From SAR202 cluster bacterium (GTDB lineage Bacteria; Chloroflexota; Dehalococcoidia; Lucifugimonadales; UBA6952), in contig VFGE01000032.1 in the NCBI GenBank assembly GCA_009392515.1, positions 1 to 45,978 of the forward strand: a stretch of DNA of 45,978 nucleotides. Reading direction: 5' to 3'. The notes beneath the pieces are model-generated. The model saw nothing but the letters and a program-made list of their open reading frames with translations. It made no database searches and was not told the origin of the DNA. Shown here piece by piece: positions 33,521-45,863 of this stretch. A program made the translations under genes and the position numbers. Position 1 is the stretch's first letter, and every line of letters begins with the position of its first letter.

Positions 33521-34891
33521 ATGTTTAATATGACACAAAATATCCCTGAACATAATAATATTTGGTCAGCAACTCTTGGTTTACTTGAAATGAAAATTCC
33601 AAAAGCCAGCTTTGAAACATGGCTAAAAGATACTTTTGTTTTGAATTCCAAAAATAACGTACTGACTATTGGAGTTTCCTCATCGTTTGTTTCAGAATGG
33701 TTGAATAAAAAGATGAAAACTCAAATAGAATCAGCCGTCAAAGAAGTAAGTTCTATAAAAACAAAAGTCGTTTTTACTGTTGCAAAAAATAGAGAAACCC
33801 CTACAAAAACACCAGCTAATATAGACATAAAAGCAACAAAAAAACCAGTTTCAAAATTTAATAAATCAAATTACCGGTTTGATAATTTTGTAGTAGGTGA
33901 ATCTAATAAGCTTGCATATTCATCTGCATTAAGTGTAGCAACAGAGCCTGGAGGAAGATTTAATCCTCTATTTATTTACTCAGGTGTTGGATTAGGTAAA
34001 ACCCACCTTTTACAATCAATAGCGGACCTGATGCGAAAAAATAGCCAAAGCATACTTTATGTAACCACTGAACAATTTACTAACGAATTTGTAACAGCTA
34101 TACAGAAAAGAAAAACAGATGAATTTCGCGCCAAGTATCGAAATGCTGATGCGCTAATCTTAGACGATATACAATTTCTACAAGGTAAAGAACAAACACA
34201 AGAAGGACTGTTCCATACTTTTAACGATCTACATGATTCAAACAAACAAATCGTATTAGCATGCGACCGACATCCCCAATATGTTGATTTTATCCATGAC
34301 CGTTTATTGTCCAGATTTCAATGGGGACTAGTCGCAGATATTCAAAGCCCAGAAATAGAAACTAGAGCAGCTATTGTTTTAAAAAAAGCCGAGCAAGCAA
34401 ATATACCCATAACTGAAGATGTAACTAGCCTTCTGGCCACTTTATATACCCATAGTATTAGAGAACTAGAAGGTAATTTAAATAAATTGATTGCCTACTC
34501 AGAATTTTCTGGGGTAAATATTAATTTAGACTTGGCAAAATTAGCACTTGGTCTTGATACTGAATCTTATAACTTGCCAATCACTGAGGTTTCTCCTGAA
34601 GATTTAATATCAATCGTTGCCAAATATTACAAAATTAGTGTAGAAAAAATACAAACCAAACAAAGTGGCAGGGTTTCTGAGCCTCAAAAAGTTGCTATGT
34701 ATCTTGCACTAGAAATCTTAAAATTAAGGTATCAAGAAATTGTGCCACTTTTTGGAAACTGGACAACTAAAACAATTAGAGCCTCAAACAATTGGGTAAA
34801 AAATGAATTGTCTTCAAATAATGAATTTGCAAAAAAAATAACTTCAATAAAATCAATTATTTCACCAAAACTATCTTATAAACTAAATTAG
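33521..34891 (+). CDS. dnaA: Chromosomal replication initiator DnaA with divergent domain IV
   Basis: This 456-residue protein begins with domain I (IWSATLGLLEMKIPKASFETWLKDT). The AAA+ domain III is intact: Walker A GVGLGKTHLL near 156-165, DDIQFLQGKEQTQE, the box VII-type Arg region HDRLLSRFQWGLVADI. Domain IV is unusual. The DnaA signature GGRDHTTV inside the helix-turn-helix reads GNWTTKTI (residues 412-419), and the basic residues before PQKVAMYL are mostly lost. In E. coli Arg399, Asp433, His434 and Thr435 read the DnaA box; none is kept. Start ATG 33521 is assumed; ATG 33530 is an alternative. It lies near gyrB but without dnaN or recF. Confidence 0.92.
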   Translation: MFNMTQNIPEHNNIWSATLGLLEMKIPKASFETWLKDTFVLNSKNNVLTIGVSSSFVSEWLNKKMKTQIESAVKEVSSIKTKVVFTVAKNRETPTKTPANIDIKATKKPVSKFNKSNYRFDNFVVGESNKLAYSSALSVATEPGGRFNPLFIYSGVGLGKTHLLQSIADLMRKNSQSILYVTTEQFTNEFVTAIQKRKTDEFRAKYRNADALILDDIQFLQGKEQTQEGLFHTFNDLHDSNKQIVLACDRHPQYVDFIHDRLLSRFQWGLVADIQSPEIETRAAIVLKKAEQANIPITEDVTSLLATLYTHSIRELEGNLNKLIAYSEFSGVNINLDLAKLALGLDTESYNLPITEVSPEDLISIVAKYYKISVEKIQTKQSGRVSEPQKVAMYLALEILKLRYQEIVPLFGNWTTKTIRASNNWVKNELSSNNEFAKKITSIKSIISPKLSYKLN

Positions 34892-34954
34892 TTGAGATTA
34901 TAATAATATATTTGTATAGTTAATTATAAATATATTAGGATTGGATGATTTTAA

Positions 34955-35506
34955 TTGGAAAAACATCGCCATTTTTCATTACTAGAAAACGAAAAAATTG
35001 TTTATCTTTTCGGCAATGAAACAGGAAAAATTCATACAAGTAGATACAGTCTTACAGATAATAATGACTCAGAATATTTAACTTTAACTAATTTTCGACT
35101 AATTTATGAATCTTTTACCGAAGAAAAAGATATAACGCAAGTAATCAAAACAAACGATATATCAAGCACAGAGCTATCTTTACCCAAAAAAACTTATACA
35201 GATTTATTATGCGGAATAGGTTTTGGTATTGCCTCTCTTGTTTGGGTGTGGTTTTCTTTTGCCTTTGGATTTACTTCTATACTTACTTGGCTTATTTTGT
35301 TAACAATAGCTGGATTCTCTGGTATTAATCTTTTTTCATATTTTGCCACTCAAGAAATCCCAAAATTAAAAATTAAAACTGGCTCAAACGAACTCGTTAT
35401 TGATTTAATGTCAAAGACTGCATTATCTGACTCAGAGGAAATTATCAATTTTATATATAGCCAAAGCGCCGGAATTGGTATACCCATATCTATAGATAAT
35501 TACTAA
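34955..35506 (+). CDS. Hypothetical membrane protein, two TM segments, PH-like N-terminal part
   Basis: This 183-residue protein is not recognised as a named family. Residues 1-75 look like a soluble beta-rich domain (EKIVYLFGNETGKI, EYLTLTNFRLIYES), with the L-T-N-x-R-L-I-Y pattern seen in bacterial PH/GRAM-like domains. Residues about 85-130 form two adjacent hydrophobic helices. A short cytosolic beta part, LKIKTGSNELVIDL, follows. The TTG start is set by GGATG about 8 bases upstream. It lies between dnaA and tsaD, and its last 17 bases overlap the convergent tsaD end. Confidence 0.7.
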   Translation: MEKHRHFSLLENEKIVYLFGNETGKIHTSRYSLTDNNDSEYLTLTNFRLIYESFTEEKDITQVIKTNDISSTELSLPKKTYTDLLCGIGFGIASLVWVWFSFAFGFTSILTWLILLTIAGFSGINLFSYFATQEIPKLKIKTGSNELVIDLMSKTALSDSEEIINFIYSQSAGIGIPISIDNY

Positions 35507-36527
35507 CAGGGTCATCTTCTATAGACAAACCAGGATTAACGTCTAACTCTATATTATGCTCATATTGCTTAAAATAAGCACAGGCTGCTATCATGGCACC
35601 ATTATCAATACACAAACCGGGGCGAGGTATTACCACCGGAACTTGCCTGATTTCGCCTTCAATTCTTTCTCTCAATCTAGCATTTGCTGCCACTCCTCCT
35701 CCAACAATAGCCATTTTGGCACCAGATATATTAATTGCCCGTTCTATTTTCGTCGCTAAGACTTCTGTAATGGCTTCCTGAAATTCCCAGGCCATTCTGG
35801 AGACAAGTTGTGAGTCTTGTGTCAAATCAAAACCAATTTCTTTAGATTTTGCCCTAGCCTTATTTAAAAAAGCTGTTTTTAAACCACTAAAGCTAAAATC
35901 CAAACCTTCTCTTAACAGTGGCCTAGGCATAACTAAATCAGATACATCTAATTCATTTGATGCGTGTTTTTGTATTTCAGGCCCCCCTGGGTAACTTAAG
36001 CCAAGAACTCTAGCAGCTTTATCAAAAGCTTCTCCCGCGGCGTCATCTTTGGTTTGGCCTAAAATTTCATAATCTCCGTGATTTCTCATCAAAATTAATT
36101 CCGTGTGGCCACCAGAAGCAACCATACAAATCAAAGGAAATTTTGGAGAGAAGTTGTCCTTTTCCAACCAGGAGCTATATATATGTGCCTCTATATGGTT
36201 AATACCTAATAAAGGTTTTTTGTAAATATAGGCTAGGGTTTTTGCAAGATTTACACCTACTAAAAGAGATCCAGCCAATCCAGGGCCAAAAGTTACTCCT
36301 ATTTTATCTACTTCTTCAATTTTTACATTTGCATTATTTAGCGATTGTTGCAAAGCTGGGATAATTGCAGCAACATGGGCTCGCGATGCGATCTCGGGCA
36401 CAATCCCCCCATGTTGGGCATGGATTTCCACCTGAGAACGAATTACATTTGATAATAAATTCGAACCATTTTCTACAACAGATATGGCCGTTTCGTCACA
36501 AGATGTTTCTATTCCTAGTATTATCAT
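35490..36527 (-). CDS. tsaD: tRNA N6-threonylcarbamoyladenosine transferase TsaD
   Basis: This 345-residue ASKHA-fold enzyme transfers threonylcarbamoyl to A37 of ANN-decoding tRNAs, with TsaB, TsaC and TsaE. It starts with the phosphate-binding segment ILGIETSCDETAISVVE. It holds the iron-binding pair in NHIEAHIYSSW near 110, then VASGGHTELILM and the C-terminal GGVAANARLRE and CIDNGAMIAACAYF. Length is normal. Divergent from gyrB across 172 bases; its 3' end overlaps the membrane-protein gene. Confidence 0.97.
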   Translation of the reverse strand: MIILGIETSCDETAISVVENGSNLLSNVIRSQVEIHAQHGGIVPEIASRAHVAAIIPALQQSLNNANVKIEEVDKIGVTFGPGLAGSLLVGVNLAKTLAYIYKKPLLGINHIEAHIYSSWLEKDNFSPKFPLICMVASGGHTELILMRNHGDYEILGQTKDDAAGEAFDKAARVLGLSYPGGPEIQKHASNELDVSDLVMPRPLLREGLDFSFSGLKTAFLNKARAKSKEIGFDLTQDSQLVSRMAWEFQEAITEVLATKIERAINISGAKMAIVGGGVAANARLRERIEGEIRQVPVVIPRPGLCIDNGAMIAACAYFKQYEHNIELDVNPGLSIEDDPVSNYL

Positions 36528-36595
36528 AATTCTCCATTCAATACTATATATTGTGCATTCTTTACTATTAAATACAAATATTGGTGTTTATTACT

Positions 36596-36624
36596 TTGAC
36601 TGTATATATCTATTTTGTTAAAAT
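36596..36624 (+). promoter_or_regulatory. Promoter of gyrB
   Basis: TTGACT (36596-36601) and TAAAAT (36619-36624) with 17-base spacing, 75 bases upstream of the gyrB ATG. One DnaA-box-like 9-mer, GTATACACA (36634-36642), lies just downstream, but it is solitary. Confidence 0.55.
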
Positions 36625-36690
36625 AACGTATCCGTATACACAAACATAGAACATATTACAAGACGATTAAAAGATAGTAAAACTTAATGA

Positions 36691-39240
<2,550 letters not shown>

Positions 39241-39248
39241 GGAAGTAG

Positions 39249-40637
39249 ATGGTGGATGCAACTAAAGATACGCTAAGCTCATACGCATACGATTTATCAT
39301 TTTCAGATCTAGATGGCAAAACGGTTCATCAGGTTAAAAGAACATTATTAGATAGTATTGGTTGCCTCTTAGGCGGATTTAATTCCAAAACAGCAATAAT
39401 AGCAAGAAAAATAGCCCCAAAGGCCACCGAGTCTCCCATATCAAGAGTTATAGGAACAGCAAATAATACAACCATAGATGTTGCTGCGTTTGCCAATGCT
39501 GTTGCTATTAGATATCTAGATTTCAATGATTCTTATTTTTCACCTGGTGGTGGCCATCCTAGCGATATGGTGTCAGCTTCACTTGCAGCAGGCGAATACC
39601 AAGAATCTACCGGAAAAGAGATTATTACTAGTATAGCTCTAGCATATCAGGTATTTTGTGGTATATCAGATGTTGCACCCATGTTGGGTGGCAGAGAATG
39701 GGATCAAGGTTTATGTGTGGGGATAGGCGCAGCGCTTTCCTCGGGCAAATTACTCGGTTTGTCACAAGAAGAATTGGGCCACTCACTTTCCATCTCCTTA
39801 GTTCCTAATTTACCACTCCTTGCCACAAGAGTGGGTGAACTATCCTTATGGAAAGGTTGCGCTACAGCTAATGCAACAAAAGCAGGAGTGTTTGCCTCAG
39901 TATTAGCAAAAGAAGGAATGGAGGGCCCTTATGAGCCCTTTGAAGGAAAAAATGGTCTATGGGAAAAATTAAACGTGACTCCAACAAAACCTCAGATAAT
40001 AAGTATTTCTTCTGCTATATCAGCACGATTTGAGCCTTTTGGCATAACAAGAACAGATTTTAAATTTTTTCCAGCCCAAATTCTCACCCAAGCACCTACA
40101 GGCCTTGCATTAGAAATAGAAAAATTAATTAATATAAACGAAATAAAATCTATACAAATAGAAACATATTCTAATTGTGTAAGTACTCCAGAAAGCCATC
40201 CGGAAAAATGGGATCCCAGAACAAGAGAAAGCGCCGACCATAGTATTCCTTTTATGGTTGCTTCTGCTTTTTTATATGGAGATATAGGAATAAATAGCTT
40301 TACTGAAGAAAGAATAACAAGTCAAGAAATCAGAAACATTATCTCAAAAATAAAAATCATAGAAAACCCATCGTTTACAAATAAACGGCCAGAGGAATCA
40401 AACTGTAAAATGAGAGTGGAACTTATTGGAGGGGAGATTATTACCAAAGAAACTAGTTATCCCAAAGGCCATTACAAAAACCCTTTAACTGACGATGAGC
40501 TAACAAACAAGTTTACAAATCTGGCAGAAACCATGATCTCCAAAGAACAGTCATCAAAAATATCCACATTGATTTGGGATTTAGAAAATCAAAAAAACTT
40601 AACAACGTTATTAGATGCTTTGATTATCGAAAGGTAA
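39249..40637 (+). CDS. MmgE/PrpD-family protein
   Basis: This 462-residue protein has the family start SYAYDLSFSDLDGKTVHQVKRTLLDSIGCLLGG. It continues with RYLDFNDSYFSPGGGHPSDMV, AYQVFCGISDVAP and KGCATANATKAGVFASVLAKEGMEGP, then a smaller lid domain near 265-400 (KFFPAQILTQAPTGLALEIE). Known members are 2-methylcitrate dehydratase, cis-aconitate decarboxylase and relatives; the substrate here cannot be read. It lies eight bases after gyrB and four before the next gene, so read-through from gyrB is likely. Confidence 0.9.
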   Translation: MVDATKDTLSSYAYDLSFSDLDGKTVHQVKRTLLDSIGCLLGGFNSKTAIIARKIAPKATESPISRVIGTANNTTIDVAAFANAVAIRYLDFNDSYFSPGGGHPSDMVSASLAAGEYQESTGKEIITSIALAYQVFCGISDVAPMLGGREWDQGLCVGIGAALSSGKLLGLSQEELGHSLSISLVPNLPLLATRVGELSLWKGCATANATKAGVFASVLAKEGMEGPYEPFEGKNGLWEKLNVTPTKPQIISISSAISARFEPFGITRTDFKFFPAQILTQAPTGLALEIEKLININEIKSIQIETYSNCVSTPESHPEKWDPRTRESADHSIPFMVASAFLYGDIGINSFTEERITSQEIRNIISKIKIIENPSFTNKRPEESNCKMRVELIGGEIITKETSYPKGHYKNPLTDDELTNKFTNLAETMISKEQSSKISTLIWDLENQKNLTTLLDALIIER

Positions 40638-40641
40638 AAAA

Positions 40642-41088
40642 ATGAAAGAATATATTCCAAGTCCACGACAGTGGGTTGCCGACCAAGTTGAATTATATGA
40701 AAAAAGTGGAGGAACTAAAGGAATAACATTAAGAGACACGGGCTTGCCTTGTATTATAATCACCCACATTGGTTGGAAAACAGGTGCTATCAGAAAAACC
40801 CCTGTAATGACTGTTCAAGACAAACAAAACTATGTGTTGATTGCATCAATGGGCGGTGCGCCCAAAAACCCTCTTTGGTATTATAATTTAAAAGAAAACC
40901 CTTTGGTTGAAATACGTGACAGAACAGAAGTATATAAAATGAAAGTTAGGGAAATTAATGAAGGCCCCGAACGCCAACGGTTATGGAACCTAGCTGTTGC
41001 AGCTTATCCACCCTATAAAGATTATCAAGAAATAACAGACAGAATAATACCTGTATTTATAGCAGAACCATACAAAGGAGAACACTAA
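40642..41088 (+). CDS. Ddn-like deazaflavin (F420)-dependent nitroreductase-family protein
   Basis: This 148-residue protein resembles the DUF385/Ddn family of split-barrel F420H2-dependent reductases. It has the pattern ITHIGWKTGAIRKTPVM, then YVLIASMGGAPKNPLWYYNLKENPLVEI, which are the family's core cofactor-binding segments, and YKDYQEITDRIIPVFI at the end. Mycobacterial members reduce quinones and nitroimidazoles. If it truly uses F420, this organism should make F420; no fbi/cof gene is in the window. It is translated close behind the MmgE/PrpD gene and three bases before the MaoC-like gene's start. Confidence 0.85.
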   Translation: MKEYIPSPRQWVADQVELYEKSGGTKGITLRDTGLPCIIITHIGWKTGAIRKTPVMTVQDKQNYVLIASMGGAPKNPLWYYNLKENPLVEIRDRTEVYKMKVREINEGPERQRLWNLAVAAYPPYKDYQEITDRIIPVFIAEPYKGEH

Positions 41089-41090
41089 TT

Positions 41091-42038
41091 ATGAATGTTT
41101 TAGAATGGGATCAAATTTTAATAGGCACATCTGCAAAACCAACCTCAATAAATATCACAAAGGAAATGATACTTAATTATAATGAATCTATTGAAGATAA
41201 TGCTGCTACTGGCAAGGGGGATTCTCTACATGCTCCGGCAGGGATGTTTTTTATTTATGCTCCTGCACGTAGATTAGACGTAATGCATGAAAACGGTTTT
41301 ATTTCACCAGAAGAAGCAGAACAGAATAGTCGCTCTACACCTTTTGTTGGAACAGATATAGAATGGAAAGGGACTCCAATTAAAGAAAACGACACTATTA
41401 CAAGTACTGCTTTCTTTGAAAAGAAATGGGAAAGCTCTTCAGGAAATAGATTTTTATCCATAGGTGTAGAGGCAAAAAATCAAAATAACGAACCTGTCAT
41501 TAATTATAGATATAATGTAATGTGGGAATTCTCGAAAGGCCAAAAATCAAGAAGCCCCGGAACGGCCCAAACAATAAGCGCAAATATTGGAACCGAAACA
41601 AATAATTTTGATATTAATAATATATCTGAAGGCGATATTATCCCTCAATTACAACGAGCTATCTCTCAAGAAACTATCAATAAGTACCATGAGCTAAACA
41701 ACTGGTCCAACAAGGAGCCTAGCCCAACTGCTTTGCTTCATGTAGACGAAGCTTTTGCAGAAGCTACTGTTTTCAGTGGAACAACATTATCTGGCCCTAC
41801 TGCTGTTGGATTTATGCTACATCTTGTAGAAAAAACGTTTGGCAAAAATGCTATTATTAACAGCACTTTTAATGAACGCGCTCTCGAGCCTGTGCGCCCC
41901 GGAGATATAATTACTTATTCTGGAAAAGTTCTTGCAATTAATAACACCGAAAAAGAAAAAAGGTTAGACCTTGAAGTAAGGGGAACAAATCAGTTAGGCC
42001 AAACCACTTCTCTGGCTTCAGTAAATCTCCCTCTTTGA
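41091..42038 (+). CDS. MaoC-like double hot-dog protein (putative enoyl-CoA or hydroxyacyl dehydratase)
   Basis: This 315-residue protein appears to contain two hot-dog domains. The first (about 1-150) includes APAGMFFIYAPARRLDV, DIEWKGTPIKENDTI and FEKKWESSSGNRFL. The second (about 190-315) includes LLHVDEAFAEATVFSGTTLSG and a MaoC-like EPVRPGDIITYSGKVL. The canonical hydratase D-x4-H is not clear, so activity is unproven. In context (MmgE/PrpD, F420-type reductase) it could act on a CoA-bound or free organic acid. It ends eight bases from the convergent pyrE stop. Confidence 0.72.
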   Translation: MNVLEWDQILIGTSAKPTSINITKEMILNYNESIEDNAATGKGDSLHAPAGMFFIYAPARRLDVMHENGFISPEEAEQNSRSTPFVGTDIEWKGTPIKENDTITSTAFFEKKWESSSGNRFLSIGVEAKNQNNEPVINYRYNVMWEFSKGQKSRSPGTAQTISANIGTETNNFDINNISEGDIIPQLQRAISQETINKYHELNNWSNKEPSPTALLHVDEAFAEATVFSGTTLSGPTAVGFMLHLVEKTFGKNAIINSTFNERALEPVRPGDIITYSGKVLAINNTEKEKRLDLEVRGTNQLGQTTSLASVNLPL

Positions 42039-42046
42039 TTTATATA

Positions 42047-42673
42047 TTAAATGTCTGAGTTAAAAGGGCCTGTTCTTAACCAATCTTCAACTAGTTTAAT
42101 TTCTTTCGAGGAAAGATAGTTATTTTTGAGTGCGGTTTGTAAGATTTCGTCAATCCCAAACAAAAATGAGTGTTTTATTTGTAGTTCTTGAAATCTTTCT
42201 TTGGCTAGTTTGGATTTATATGAGCAAATACTATAGCAAGAAAGAACTTCTATATTTTCTGAGTGAATCGCTTCAACAGAACGAATTGCAGACCCCCCGG
42301 TGCTAGTTAAATCTTCTATAACAATGACCTTTCGTCCCTTATCTATACTGCCTTCGATTTGTTTTCCTAGACCATGATCTTTTGGCTCTGGTCTAACATA
42401 TGCTAAGGGTTTATTAAGCCTTTGTGCTAATAAAGATGCCCAAGGAATACCAGCAGTAGCAACTCCCACTACCACGTAGTTATTAAACCTTTCTCTTTCG
42501 ATTAGATCAGCTATCTTATTTATAATCTCTCCACGTGTTTCTACATCCGATAAGAGCTTCCTCATATCACAGTAAATTGGACTATTTACACCTGAAGCTA
42601 ATATATAAGGCATTGTTGGATCTACGACAACAGCCTGGTTTGATAAAATTTTTTCTGGAATTGTTTTATTCAT
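42047..42673 (-). CDS. pyrE: Orotate phosphoribosyltransferase
   Basis: This 208-residue enzyme makes OMP from orotate and PRPP in pyrimidine synthesis. The PRPP-binding motif VIVIEDLTSTGGSA lies near 115-128, and the flexible-loop Lys/His segment RPEPKDHGLGKQIEG near 94-108. An N-terminal VDPTMPYILASGVNSPIYCDMR segment matches the family. Its start overlaps the nadD stop by one base. It is the last gene of the obg-nadD-pyrE run. Confidence 0.95.
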   Translation of the reverse strand: MNKTIPEKILSNQAVVVDPTMPYILASGVNSPIYCDMRKLLSDVETRGEIINKIADLIERERFNNYVVVGVATAGIPWASLLAQRLNKPLAYVRPEPKDHGLGKQIEGSIDKGRKVIVIEDLTSTGGSAIRSVEAIHSENIEVLSCYSICSYKSKLAKERFQELQIKHSFLFGIDEILQTALKNNYLSSKEIKLVEDWLRTGPFNSDI

Positions 42674-43260
42674 TACACTTGTTTTTTATATAAATTATTT
42701 TTAAAAATATACTCTTCTACGTTTTTAGGCACAAGTCCTTGTAACGAATCATTGGTTTGAACCTTTTTTCTTATTAAAGTGCTGCTTATTTCCTCTATTT
42801 CTTCATCAATTATGGTAACGGTATGATTTATAGTTTCTGGTAGAGTGTCACCCTTGCGAGTAAATAATATTATCCTCACAATTTCGATAATTTCTTCTGG
42901 ATTTTTCCATCTACTTATTTCTTTATAAGAATCACTGCCTAAAATTAAATGATATTCTTTTTGGGATTTATCTACACCTAGTTCCTTTAGTGTGTCTATT
43001 GTGTATGTGTTTCCTAGTCTCTTTATTTCTATATCAGAAATACAAAATGAAGAATTATTTCCTATAGCCAAATTAACCATATTTAATCTATGGATTGGAC
43101 TTGTAATCAACGTGTCTTTTTTCATCCAAGGATTACCTGCTGGTATAAATAAAACTTTATCCAAATTGCACTCAACCATCGCTATTTCTGCTAACTTTAT
43201 GTGTGCTGTATGAATAGGGTCAAAAGTTCCTCCAAGTATGCCTATCTTATTTATTCCCAT
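42673..43260 (-). CDS. nadD: Nicotinate-nucleotide adenylyltransferase
   Basis: This 195-residue enzyme adenylates nicotinate mononucleotide. The nucleotidyltransferase motif GGTFDPIHTAHIKLAE (with the TxxH pattern) is at 10-25, FIPAGNPWMKK near 40-50, and the C-terminal ISSTLIRKKV near 160. It supplies deamido-NAD for the NadE at 16794. Its start overlaps the 3' end of obg by 10 bases, a common obg-nadD arrangement; rsfS, often next, is replaced by pyrE. Confidence 0.96.
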   Translation of the reverse strand: MGINKIGILGGTFDPIHTAHIKLAEIAMVECNLDKVLFIPAGNPWMKKDTLITSPIHRLNMVNLAIGNNSSFCISDIEIKRLGNTYTIDTLKELGVDKSQKEYHLILGSDSYKEISRWKNPEEIIEIVRIILFTRKGDTLPETINHTVTIIDEEIEEISSTLIRKKVQTNDSLQGLVPKNVEEYIFKNNLYKKQV

Positions 43261-44480
43261 ATGAACTCTTTCTTGCCTATTTTTACATTGTCTCCTTGTT
43301 TTACCCCTGCCTTTTCAAGAGCATCTATTACCCCCATAGTATTTAGCTCTTTTCTTAATTGTATTCTTGCAGCAAAACTTCTTTGGTCCGGTAACACAAC
43401 GAGTCTTTCAGCTCTAGAATTAAAAACAACATATCCTTCGCTGTTTTTTTCAACCTTAGTTATGTTTTTTTCTTCAGTTGTATGAATAACATTGTTTTTT
43501 TCCAATTGTTTTTTGTATAAAAATTCTTTATTTAAAATATTTATGGCTTTCTCTTTTATATGCCTTATTATGTTTTCTGATTCTTTTTCATACTGGATTA
43601 AGTCTACATATTCAGCTTGTTTTTGCTCAATATATTCTTCCCCTAATAAATCAAGCTCTTCCTTAATAAATGTAATTTCTGGACTACGGGTATATATAGT
43701 ATTTGAAGCTAGAAATTGGGCAATATTTTCAATATTTATATCAACTTCATCAAGTTCTAAAACTAGGATTATAACCTTGGCCCTTTTAATTAAATTTAAG
43801 CTTTCTTGCAACTGATCAACATTGTTATTTGAAAAAGAGATTAATCCAATTTGGTACTTAGTCCAATTCAGTTCTACTTCTCTTACCTGAAAGGAGCTAT
43901 GTGGTGCGATATTAACCTCTTCATTCTGTTGACCACGGTTAATATTGGTTATACTTTCAAATATACTTTTAGCATATCCCGAAAGATCACCCATTACACA
44001 AATATCTACCAAGGGGAAAAGTTCCATTACTACTTTTTTTTCTTCCCCAGGACCTCCTGTTTCTGCTAAAAGAGGTATTTTATTTCGAGAAGTAGAAAAG
44101 CGAGTGTTTCCTTTTCCATAAACTCCCCCCTGAGCCACCAATAACTGTTCCCCTTCTTCCATTATTTCTCCTATAATTTTCCCAGTTACTGTGTCACTAA
44201 CCCTAGTTCCCAACGGAACATTTATAATATTATTTTCCCCTGCTTTTCCTGTTTTCTTCCTACTTTTTCCCTCTTCTCCCCTGGCTGCTTTTATAATATT
44301 TCTACCTTTAATTTTTCGTAAGTCGTATTCTGCGGTAGTCCCTTTAAGAATAACACTTCCACCAAACCCACCATCTCCTCCGTCAGGTCCACCTTTAGGA
44401 ACGTATTTTTCTCTTCGGAAACTAATACATCCGTTTCCACCAGTTCCTCCCTGAAAAGTTATATTTATTTCTGTTTCCAC
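43251..44480 (-). CDS. obg: Obg-family protein with degenerate GTPase domain
   Basis: This 409-residue protein has an intact glycine-rich Obg fold (1-158: FRREKYVPKGGPDGGDGG, GNTRFSTSRNKIP) and a C-terminal OCT domain (about 346-409). The middle G domain (about 158-318) has lost all GTPase motifs. G1, normally GFPNxGKST, is GDLSGYAKS (164-172); the G2 Thr, G3 DxPG, G4 NKxD and G5 SA cannot be found. Beta strands at the expected places remain (VDICVMG, IGLISFS, AKVIILVLEL). It is in the normal obg-nadD position. Obg normally assists 50S ribosome assembly and is essential, so this copy is either GTP-independent or a paralogue. It starts with GTG. Confidence 0.9.
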   Translation of the reverse strand: METEINITFQGGTGGNGCISFRREKYVPKGGPDGGDGGFGGSVILKGTTAEYDLRKIKGRNIIKAARGEEGKSRKKTGKAGENNIINVPLGTRVSDTVTGKIIGEIMEEGEQLLVAQGGVYGKGNTRFSTSRNKIPLLAETGGPGEEKKVVMELFPLVDICVMGDLSGYAKSIFESITNINRGQQNEEVNIAPHSSFQVREVELNWTKYQIGLISFSNNNVDQLQESLNLIKRAKVIILVLELDEVDINIENIAQFLASNTIYTRSPEITFIKEELDLLGEEYIEQKQAEYVDLIQYEKESENIIRHIKEKAINILNKEFLYKKQLEKNNVIHTTEEKNITKVEKNSEGYVVFNSRAERLVVLPDQRSFAARIQLRKELNTMGVIDALEKAGVKQGDNVKIGKKEFIWE

Positions 44481-44584
44481 TCTTATTTAACTCTCTTACT
44501 ATTATTAGTATTATTATCATTACATATTATATAAATATATTAATATATATAGTTATATTATTAATTATAATCAATAATACTTTC

Positions 44585-44612
44585 TTGACATCATTTTTTG
44601 AATATATATACT
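44585..44612 (+). promoter_or_regulatory. Promoter for tRNA-Ile (and probably hflK)
   Basis: TTGACA (44585-44590) and TATACT (44607-44612) are separated by 16 bases. The tRNA starts 27 bases downstream of the -10. No terminator is visible between tRNA and hflK, so hflK may share this promoter. The bases from 44481 to 44584 hold only very AT-rich spacer. Confidence 0.65.
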
Positions 44613-44639
44613 TCTGATAGATAGAGCAAATAAACTTTT

Positions 44640-44716
44640 GGGCGATTAGCTCAGCTGGTTAGAGCGCAGTCCTGATAAGACTGAGGTCCCTGGTTCGAGT
44701 CCAGGATCGCCCACCA
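44640..44716 (+). tRNA. tRNA-Ile (anticodon GAT), CCA encoded
   Basis: The cloverleaf folds fully. The acceptor GGGCGAT pairs with ATCGCCC, the D stem is GCTC/GAGC, the anticodon stem CAGTC/GACTG carries the loop CTGATAA with anticodon GAT at 44674-44676, and the T stem CCTGG/CCAGG carries TTCGAGT. The discriminator is A and CCA is encoded at 44714-44716. This isoacceptor often sits in the 16S-23S spacer; here it is on its own. Confidence 0.97.
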
Positions 44717-44726
44717 CTAACCCTTG

Positions 44727-44769
44727 TAATTCAACCCTAAAAATAATAAACTGGTATTACGTTGAATTA
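44727..44769 (+). other. Inverted repeat between tRNA-Ile and hflK
   Basis: TAATTCAAC (44727-44735) and GTTGAATTA (44761-44769) are perfectly complementary, with a 25-base loop. The 3' arm ends three bases before the AGGAAAC ribosome site of hflK. It could mark tRNA/mRNA processing or control of hflK translation. Confidence 0.45.
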
Positions 44770-44780
44770 ATAGGAAACAT

Positions 44781-45863
44781 ATGAAAAGTAAGATCTTAAG
44801 CCTTTTTCAACAAAGGCCTCAACAAGAAATAGATTTAGATGAACTTTTTGAAAAAATCAAAAGTTCGTTTTCTGGTGGGTTTGGTGGATTTAGTCCCCAA
44901 ATTGGACGTTTTTTCATACCTGGTATACTTCTTGCCTTAATACTTGTATGGGCAGCAACTGGACTTTATAGGGTTGAACCCTCCGAACAGGCTGCCGAAA
45001 AATTACTTGGATCTTTTACCAATAATTTAAGGGGACCAGGCCTTCATTGGTTTTGGCCAGCACCTATAGGACAGGTTCAAAAAGAGGTTGTTACAGAAAC
45101 CAAAAGACTTGAAGTTGGATTTAGAACAGGTCCGGGTGGTGCAATACAAGATGTTGGCGAAGAAGCATTAATGATTACAGGAGATCTTAATCTTGTTGAT
45201 GTACAACTCATTGTTCAGTATAGAATCGGTGACCTAGGTGCTTATTTGTACAATGTAGACGATCCTGGAAGTCCAGATAGAGAAATTAGAGAGGGCGCTC
45301 CAGACGGACTAACAATTCTTGATGCCACGGAAGCATCGTTGCGGCAGGTAGTTGGGCAAAGAAGTGTTGATGATATTTTGACCACAAACAAAGAAGCTGT
45401 TCAAACAGACACTCTTCTTATGTTGCAAGAGATGCTTAGCTCTTACGAAACAGGTATTGAAGTTCTTGAAGTACGACTTCAAAACGTAAGGCCACCTGAC
45501 GAAGTTAGAGAAGATTTTGACGATGTTGTTCGAGCAAGGGTCGACAAAGAGTCCGTTATAAACGCGGCATTGGCTTACGAACAAGACCAGCTTCCTAAGG
45601 CAAGAGGTGACGCAGAGAAGGTCACTAATGCAGCTCAAGCATACAAGGAAGAAAGAATATTAAAAGCAACAGGTGAGGCAAATAGATTTTCTGCCCTACT
45701 TGACGAATATAAAAAATCAAAAGAGGTAACAAGACAGCGACTATATCTAGAGGCAATGGAAGAAGTTCTTCCTGGTGTTAAAAAGTATGTTCTTGACCCT
45801 GAAAACGAAGGCAACTTATTACAATTTTTACCATTAAACGAAAGTAGTAGTACAACACCGTGA
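44781..45863 (+). CDS. hflK: HflK-like SPFH/band 7 membrane protein
   Basis: This 360-residue protein has a cytosolic Gly/Phe-containing N-terminus (FSGGFGGFSPQIGR) and one TM helix near 47-65 (FIPGILLALILVWAATGLY). An SPFH domain follows (YRVEPSEQAAEKLLGSF, GPGLHWFWPAPIGQVQ, MITGDLNLVDVQLIVQYRI), then a long coiled coil to about 335. HflK pairs with HflC to cage and modulate the FtsH protease. The length is somewhat short of E. coli HflK (about 419). The stop overlaps the GTG of hflC as GTGA. Confidence 0.93.
   Translation: MKSKILSLFQQRPQQEIDLDELFEKIKSSFSGGFGGFSPQIGRFFIPGILLALILVWAATGLYRVEPSEQAAEKLLGSFTNNLRGPGLHWFWPAPIGQVQKEVVTETKRLEVGFRTGPGGAIQDVGEEALMITGDLNLVDVQLIVQYRIGDLGAYLYNVDDPGSPDREIREGAPDGLTILDATEASLRQVVGQRSVDDILTTNKEAVQTDTLLMLQEMLSSYETGIEVLEVRLQNVRPPDEVREDFDDVVRARVDKESVINAALAYEQDQLPKARGDAEKVTNAAQAYKEERILKATGEANRFSALLDEYKKSKEVTRQRLYLEAMEEVLPGVKKYVLDPENEGNLLQFLPLNESSSTTP

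Follow-up and report, generated by a model that had tools for sequence, protein, structure and literature searches.

The window analysed here, a stretch of 45,978 nucleotides from a SAR202 cluster bacterium (contig VFGE01000032.1), carries a dnaA gene (33521–34891, plus strand) for a protein of 456 residues and, further downstream, obgE (43251–44480, minus strand). It belongs to a 1.55-Mb draft genome that is 98.45% complete (G000), from the family which we refer to as f1. In relatives, obgE immediately follows dnaA, with oriC in the intervening spacer. In the window, obgE was moved to its present place by an inversion: the segment obgE–pyrE–gyrB–tsaD (window 34892–44780) is inverted relative to the related genome G026, and the predicted origin lies about 10 kb from dnaA.

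DnaA and its domain IV

Domains I and III of the protein are ordinary, as had been claimed in the original prediction made from this DNA. The full-length profile TIGR00362 matches residues 15–446 with 428.1 bits (cut-off 343.9), the Pfam profile Bac_DnaA scores 215.7 bits, and the Walker A and B motifs of the AAA+ domain (GVGLGKTH and DDIQFL) are intact. Comparison of domain IV with the Pfam profile Bac_DnaA_C, proposed along with the prediction, gave 37.9 bits over profile positions 1–56 of 69, and the alignment breaks off at the recognition helix. A second, canonical dnaA, which had been named as a possible counterargument, is absent from the 98.45%-complete genome: Bac_DnaA_C has a single match there, and the remaining tblastn matches are weak and AAA-like.

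Domain IV (34583–34867, plus strand, residues 355–449) is divergent. Substitutions are numbered here by the domain IV sequence of Escherichia coli DnaA. In the basic-loop region TKQSGRVSEPQK (34655–34690, plus strand, residues 379–390), R399 is replaced by S, R407 by Q and Q408 by K. The helix-turn-helix (34730–34816, plus strand, residues 404–432) reads N-W-T-T-K-T-I-R in place of G-R-D-H-T-T-V-L, that is, R432 is replaced by W, D433 and H434 by T, and T435 by K, with T436 unchanged. The predicted replacement of the DnaA-box recognition signature is therefore borne out, and both peptides quoted for it are present (FGNWTTKTIRAS, residues 411–422, and VSEPQKVAMYL, residues 385–395). The span given at that time, 34664–34777, corresponds to residues 382–419, so that the end of the motif lies just outside.

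R399 is known to insert into the minor groove at the 5'-TTA of the DnaA box, while the helix of residues 434–451 reads its 3' portion TnCACA; box binding is defective in the mutants T435M and R399A (reviewed in PMC5742627). The canonical TTATNCACA-reading residues R399, D433, H434 and T435 are all absent from the window protein, which has S, T, T and K instead.

The divergent domain is under purifying selection. Comparing the window with a close relative, we obtained dN/dS values of 0.02–0.04 for domains I and III, 0.94 for the linker, 0.06 for the helix-turn-helix and 0.07 for domain IV, the latter being approximate because synonymous divergence is near saturation in this domain. An AlphaFold2 model based on 48 natural sequences predicts domain IV with high confidence (pLDDT about 87–96) as a normal fold with a normal helix-turn-helix; helices are predicted at residues 387–398, 404–411 and 416–432, all with high pLDDT. 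The best structural matches of the predicted fold in the PDB are DnaA structures, headed by 8btg, a Bacillus subtilis DnaA complex. The window DnaA is apparently a functional, single-copy protein with a re-specified domain IV.

A clade of variant DnaA proteins

Judged by DnaA, the closest relatives are PBVE01000021, a same-genus-like draft with about 90% identity, and genomes from three further families of the same order. We found seven variant DnaA proteins, from four families, which form one clade (SH-aLRT 97) in a tree of domains I–III, computed with domain IV excluded and by a quick method without bootstraps. The other 55 proteins of this tree are canonical. The variant domain IV arose once, in the common ancestor of the four-family clade, a group of uncultured Chloroflexota in a Dehalococcoidia-like order. 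Common to all seven variants are W432, K or R at position 435, T436, Q407 and K or R at position 408; the clade pattern is GxWxx(K/R)T for GGRDHT(T/S) and Q-(K/R) for R-(Q/H). The helix-turn-helix sequences are GNWTTKTIRAS in f1, GDWNRRTVSNS and GSWNRRTVTNS in f30, GKWHERTVRNT in f13 and GGWSPRTVRNS in f26.

Variant-like scores (91–154 bits) were found for six of 250 genomes of the order. The rest score at most 63 bits, and the next best protein (63 bits) is canonical. Outside the order, none of 393 sampled genomes of the class reaches 70 bits; the top score is about 68 bits, and three of these best matches, when inspected, were all canonical. A survey of relatives had been suggested with the prediction, and it reveals the same replacement in four families of the order. 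Because the same pattern recurs in four families, the replacement is not due to chance; it is a lineage trait and not decay.

Entry PBVE01000021.1, which is named Rhodospirillaceae, shares its gene order with the window over the dnaA region at about 90% identity and is probably mislabelled. In both, the dnaA–tsaD interval codes for a predicted membrane protein (window 34955–35506, 183 residues) with a weak, sub-cut-off match to CLU_N. A 92%-complete bin of the same genus as the window (G001) gave no match for dnaA, obgE or hflC; most likely the contig around the origin is missing from it, which would be a gap in the bin and not biology.

Replication origins and candidate DnaA boxes

In this order, obgE is usually the next gene after dnaA, and canonical boxes cluster in the spacer between them. 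The typical layout is three inverted boxes at intervals of about 21 bp and, after them, forward copies, of which the last stands before a run of DnaA-trios. We measured skew as GC skew at fourfold sites per gene strand, which removes the effect of gene direction; plain GC skew of the window was dropped as it is confounded by this effect. The skew flips at the dnaA–obgE spacer in the canonical genome G045 (p=7e-5, plus genes) and in the variant genome G026 (p=7e-14 for plus and 4e-9 for minus genes), and that of G013 is weakly consistent with a flip. Genome G030 has dnaA and obgE on separate contigs and no clean flip at either. The dnaA–obgE spacer is oriC in the order, as boxes cluster there in canonical members and the skew flips there in G045 and G026. 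The variant DnaA of G026 thus still adjoins the apparent origin. A search for paired TTATNCACA sites recovers the canonical origins in a few relatives and has no hit in G000. The use of parS as a landmark was abandoned, as there were no clear sites.

Four variant spacers could be compared, with 559 bp in total (G026, G013, G084 and G048, a second f13 genome, the contig of which ends before dnaA). Even with up to two mismatches, TTATCCACA does not occur in any of them, compared with a mean of 3.5 per canonical spacer. TTATNCACA boxes are likewise absent from the four orthologous origins and from the candidate f1 origin. The pattern TTWTNCACA is not enriched in G000 (178 sites genome-wide versus 171 for the reversed pattern), and its two sites in the window are not clustered. 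One TTATCCACA-N12-TTATCCACA pair was seen in a variant-DnaA genome (G013:C60:14483–14512), close to a gene of phage-like appearance on visual inspection; it may perhaps belong to a mobile element or to a contig of foreign origin that carries canonical boxes of its own.

An unbiased scan of the variant spacers for all 6-mers ranks GTTTCC first (P=0.008 against 1000 dinucleotide shuffles, taken across all 6-mers), a motif discovered in the same data, from the three independent lineages f13, f26 and f30. It occurs five times in these 559 bp versus four times in 9404 bp of canonical spacers. As a control, the same scan of canonical spacers recovers TCCACA. The f19 and f20 spacers yield no significant 6-mer. 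Where canonical spacers have their final box ahead of the trios, we find GTTTCCTTA in G026 (after tandem GTTTCCAGC and GTTCCCTA), GTTTCCGCC in G048, ATTTCCACC in G013 and GTTTCCATT in G084, where the trios are weak. The skew of G026 flips exactly at the GTTTCC/trio site. In whole-genome searches of G026 and G048, GTTTCC followed by four trios within 5–25 bases was found at the origin only. The spacer between box and trios is 7–14 bp when GTTTCC is taken as the box, and GTTTCC followed by at least three trios within 16 bp is present in the window (44473–44522), G026 and G048, an arrangement that is BUS-type only if GTTTCC is the box. Triple clusters of GTTYCC are confined to the origin in G026; G013 has two matches, both outside the origin, and six other genomes have none. 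An GGTATTGTG block upstream of dnaA, common to f13 and f30, was rejected as a candidate, as it resembles a promoter -10 region.

In the window itself, the candidate re-specified box GTTTCCACT (44473–44481, plus strand) overlaps the start codon of obgE. It is separated by 14 bp from the DnaA-trio-like tract TTACTATTATTAGTATTATTATCATTA (44496–44522, plus strand; TTA CTA TTA TTA GTA TTA TTA TCA TTA), one of the two top-scoring tracts across the whole comparison. This is followed by a candidate DNA unwinding element (44511–44610), which at 90% AT is the most AT-rich 100-bp segment in the window. The arrangement GTTTCC-N5-25-trios has two matches in the whole of G000, the one at 44473 and one inside a gene; GTTTCC had been derived from other families, so that the f1 match is partly independent. 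Further GTTTCC sites lie inside the obgE coding sequence at 44433–44438 (plus strand), possibly coding-driven, and at 44417–44422 in inverted orientation (minus strand). The GTTYCC group at 44417–44442 is partly coding-derived, because the first 70 nt of obgE hold three RTTYCC here and other obgE genes hold 0–3. Repeats in the fmt–dnaA, dnaA-3' and tsaD–gyrB spacers of the window are not box-like.

Skew in G000 was evaluated on individual segments near the relevant loci. There is no change at dnaA (fourfold skew, p=0.5–0.7). The skew pattern is opposite in contig C15, which continues the window contig through hflC, and the best change point falls between 44480 and about 47 kb; leaving out the flip makes the model fit 15 log units worse. 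The original prediction had noted that boxes are lacking near dnaA and gyrB and had proposed a skew search for the origin. The former is true, but the place was wrong, since the change point adjoins obgE, at 44.5 kb or just to the right of it, and the inversion has separated it from dnaA. We infer that 44473–44610 is oriC of G000. Both the exact box and this f1 origin are to be read as probable, judged by sequence features. As hflK itself (44781–45863) does not have flipped skew (9 G, 18 C), the f1 origin could also lie to the right of hflK, in the contig gap. Box and trios of f1 point away from obgE, opposite to their direction in the relatives.

Smaller box shifts occur in canonical relatives. 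The DnaA of G006 (locus L028) has D433A and its boxes are shifted to TTATCGACA; that of G033 (locus L034) has S433 and R434, with a shift to TTATNNAAC. The box shifts appear to track changes of the helix-turn-helix in these otherwise canonical proteins. In f19, the dnaA–obgE spacers (L129 and L131) contain CTCTCCACC-like repeats, together with H434R.

Initiator and origin in the variant families

The change of DnaA and the loss of canonical boxes are well supported. We consider it probable that domain IV was re-specified and that the origin boxes changed together with it to a GTTTCC core. The broader version, a switch throughout the clade by which a DnaA with W432, K/R435, Q407 and K/R408 recognises boxes that share the core GTTTCC and differ by family in their 3' part, giving pairs of initiator and origin that are orthogonal to TTATNCACA, is slightly favoured. 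In the common ancestor of the four families, the TTATNCACA-reading residues would have been swapped for these four, and the origins would have traded TTATCCACA boxes for the GTTTCC-core box with its family-variable 3' part. Domain IV is predicted to bind tandem GTTTCC-core boxes via the new conserved residues; the AAA+ domain would then assemble on the DnaA-trios beside the AT-rich element, and the duplex would open. As to which residue reads which base, the invariant core may be matched by the invariant W432, K/R435, Q407 and K/R408, and the family-specific 3' part of the box by residues 433–434, which are likewise family-specific.

The original prediction had offered two possibilities, a DnaA that reads another sequence and one that binds with little specificity. 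The former agrees with the clade-conserved residues, the dN/dS of 0.07, the lost canonical boxes and GTTTCC at the expected position. A protein that has lost base reading and uses mainly backbone contacts, with specificity provided by trios, AT-richness or a helper protein, would be compatible with the change of all major-groove readers plus R399 in G000, with candidate boxes that differ in their 3' part between families and with the extremely AT-rich region upstream of obgE. We regard it as unlikely: it is disfavoured because the new residues are conserved across four families, and strong purifying selection on the helix-turn-helix and the enrichment of one specific 6-mer at the expected site also argue against it.

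Origin firing independent of DnaA has been reported for some cyanobacteria. If it applied here, domain IV might be kept for, e.g., transcription control, and both the separation of the f1 origin from dnaA and the lack of enrichment of canonical boxes would be accounted for. However, purifying selection on domains I and III is stronger still (dN/dS 0.02–0.04) and the G026 origin still adjoins dnaA with a box-plus-trio architecture, which makes this reading very improbable. There is equally little to recommend a DnaA that still reads an TTATCCACA-like site via other residues, with boxes that are few or elsewhere in the genome. TTAT-type boxes do persist in some relatives despite drift of the helix-turn-helix, and the G013:C60 pair consists of TTATCCACA itself, but this pair lies in a short stretch without a recognisable replication gene, in a bin with a listed contamination of 6%, and neither genome-wide enrichment in G000 nor a single site in the variant origins was found.

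A DnaA with a non-canonical box is already known, and Thermotoga maritima is a precedent for the joint change of domain IV and boxes which we favour. Its DnaA reads the 9-mer ACCTACCAC, which is not an TTATNCACA box (PMC10316083). It also combines ordinary domains I and III with a domain IV signature that departs from GRDHTT (SHPVVV at this position in our alignment), but both the replacement residues and the box differ from those described here. Moreover, Thermotoga is deep-branching, whereas the present variant arose inside one order, the other families of which mostly have canonical boxes. Canonical DnaA proteins of the order (e.g. that of G045) share domains and dnaA/oriC/obgE synteny with the variants; they have R/K432, D433, H434, S/T435 and TTATCCACA-type boxes, whereas the variants lack both. 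The architecture resembles the basal unwinding system of B. subtilis oriC, which consists of tandem DnaA-boxes and DnaA-trios (PMC8287927): box, short spacer, repeated trinucleotides and AT-rich DNA are found between dnaA and the next gene. The variants differ in having a GTTTCC core instead of TTATCCACA and obgE instead of dnaN as next gene, and in f1 the box–trio unit is apart from dnaA. The open literature, with subscription papers mostly outside the search, contained no report of a re-specified DnaA in this group.

The pairing of DnaA with TTATNCACA is among the most conserved protein–DNA codes in bacteria. If the proposed switch is true, the variant families possess an orthogonal initiator–origin pair, and origin finders keyed to TTATCCACA and the position of dnaA would miss such origins. 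The box shifts in G006, G033 and f19 form a natural series from which the specificity of DnaA could be decoded. A switch placed on the tree within one order, next to canonical and intermediate-looking families, may show how an initiator and its sites can change together without lethality.
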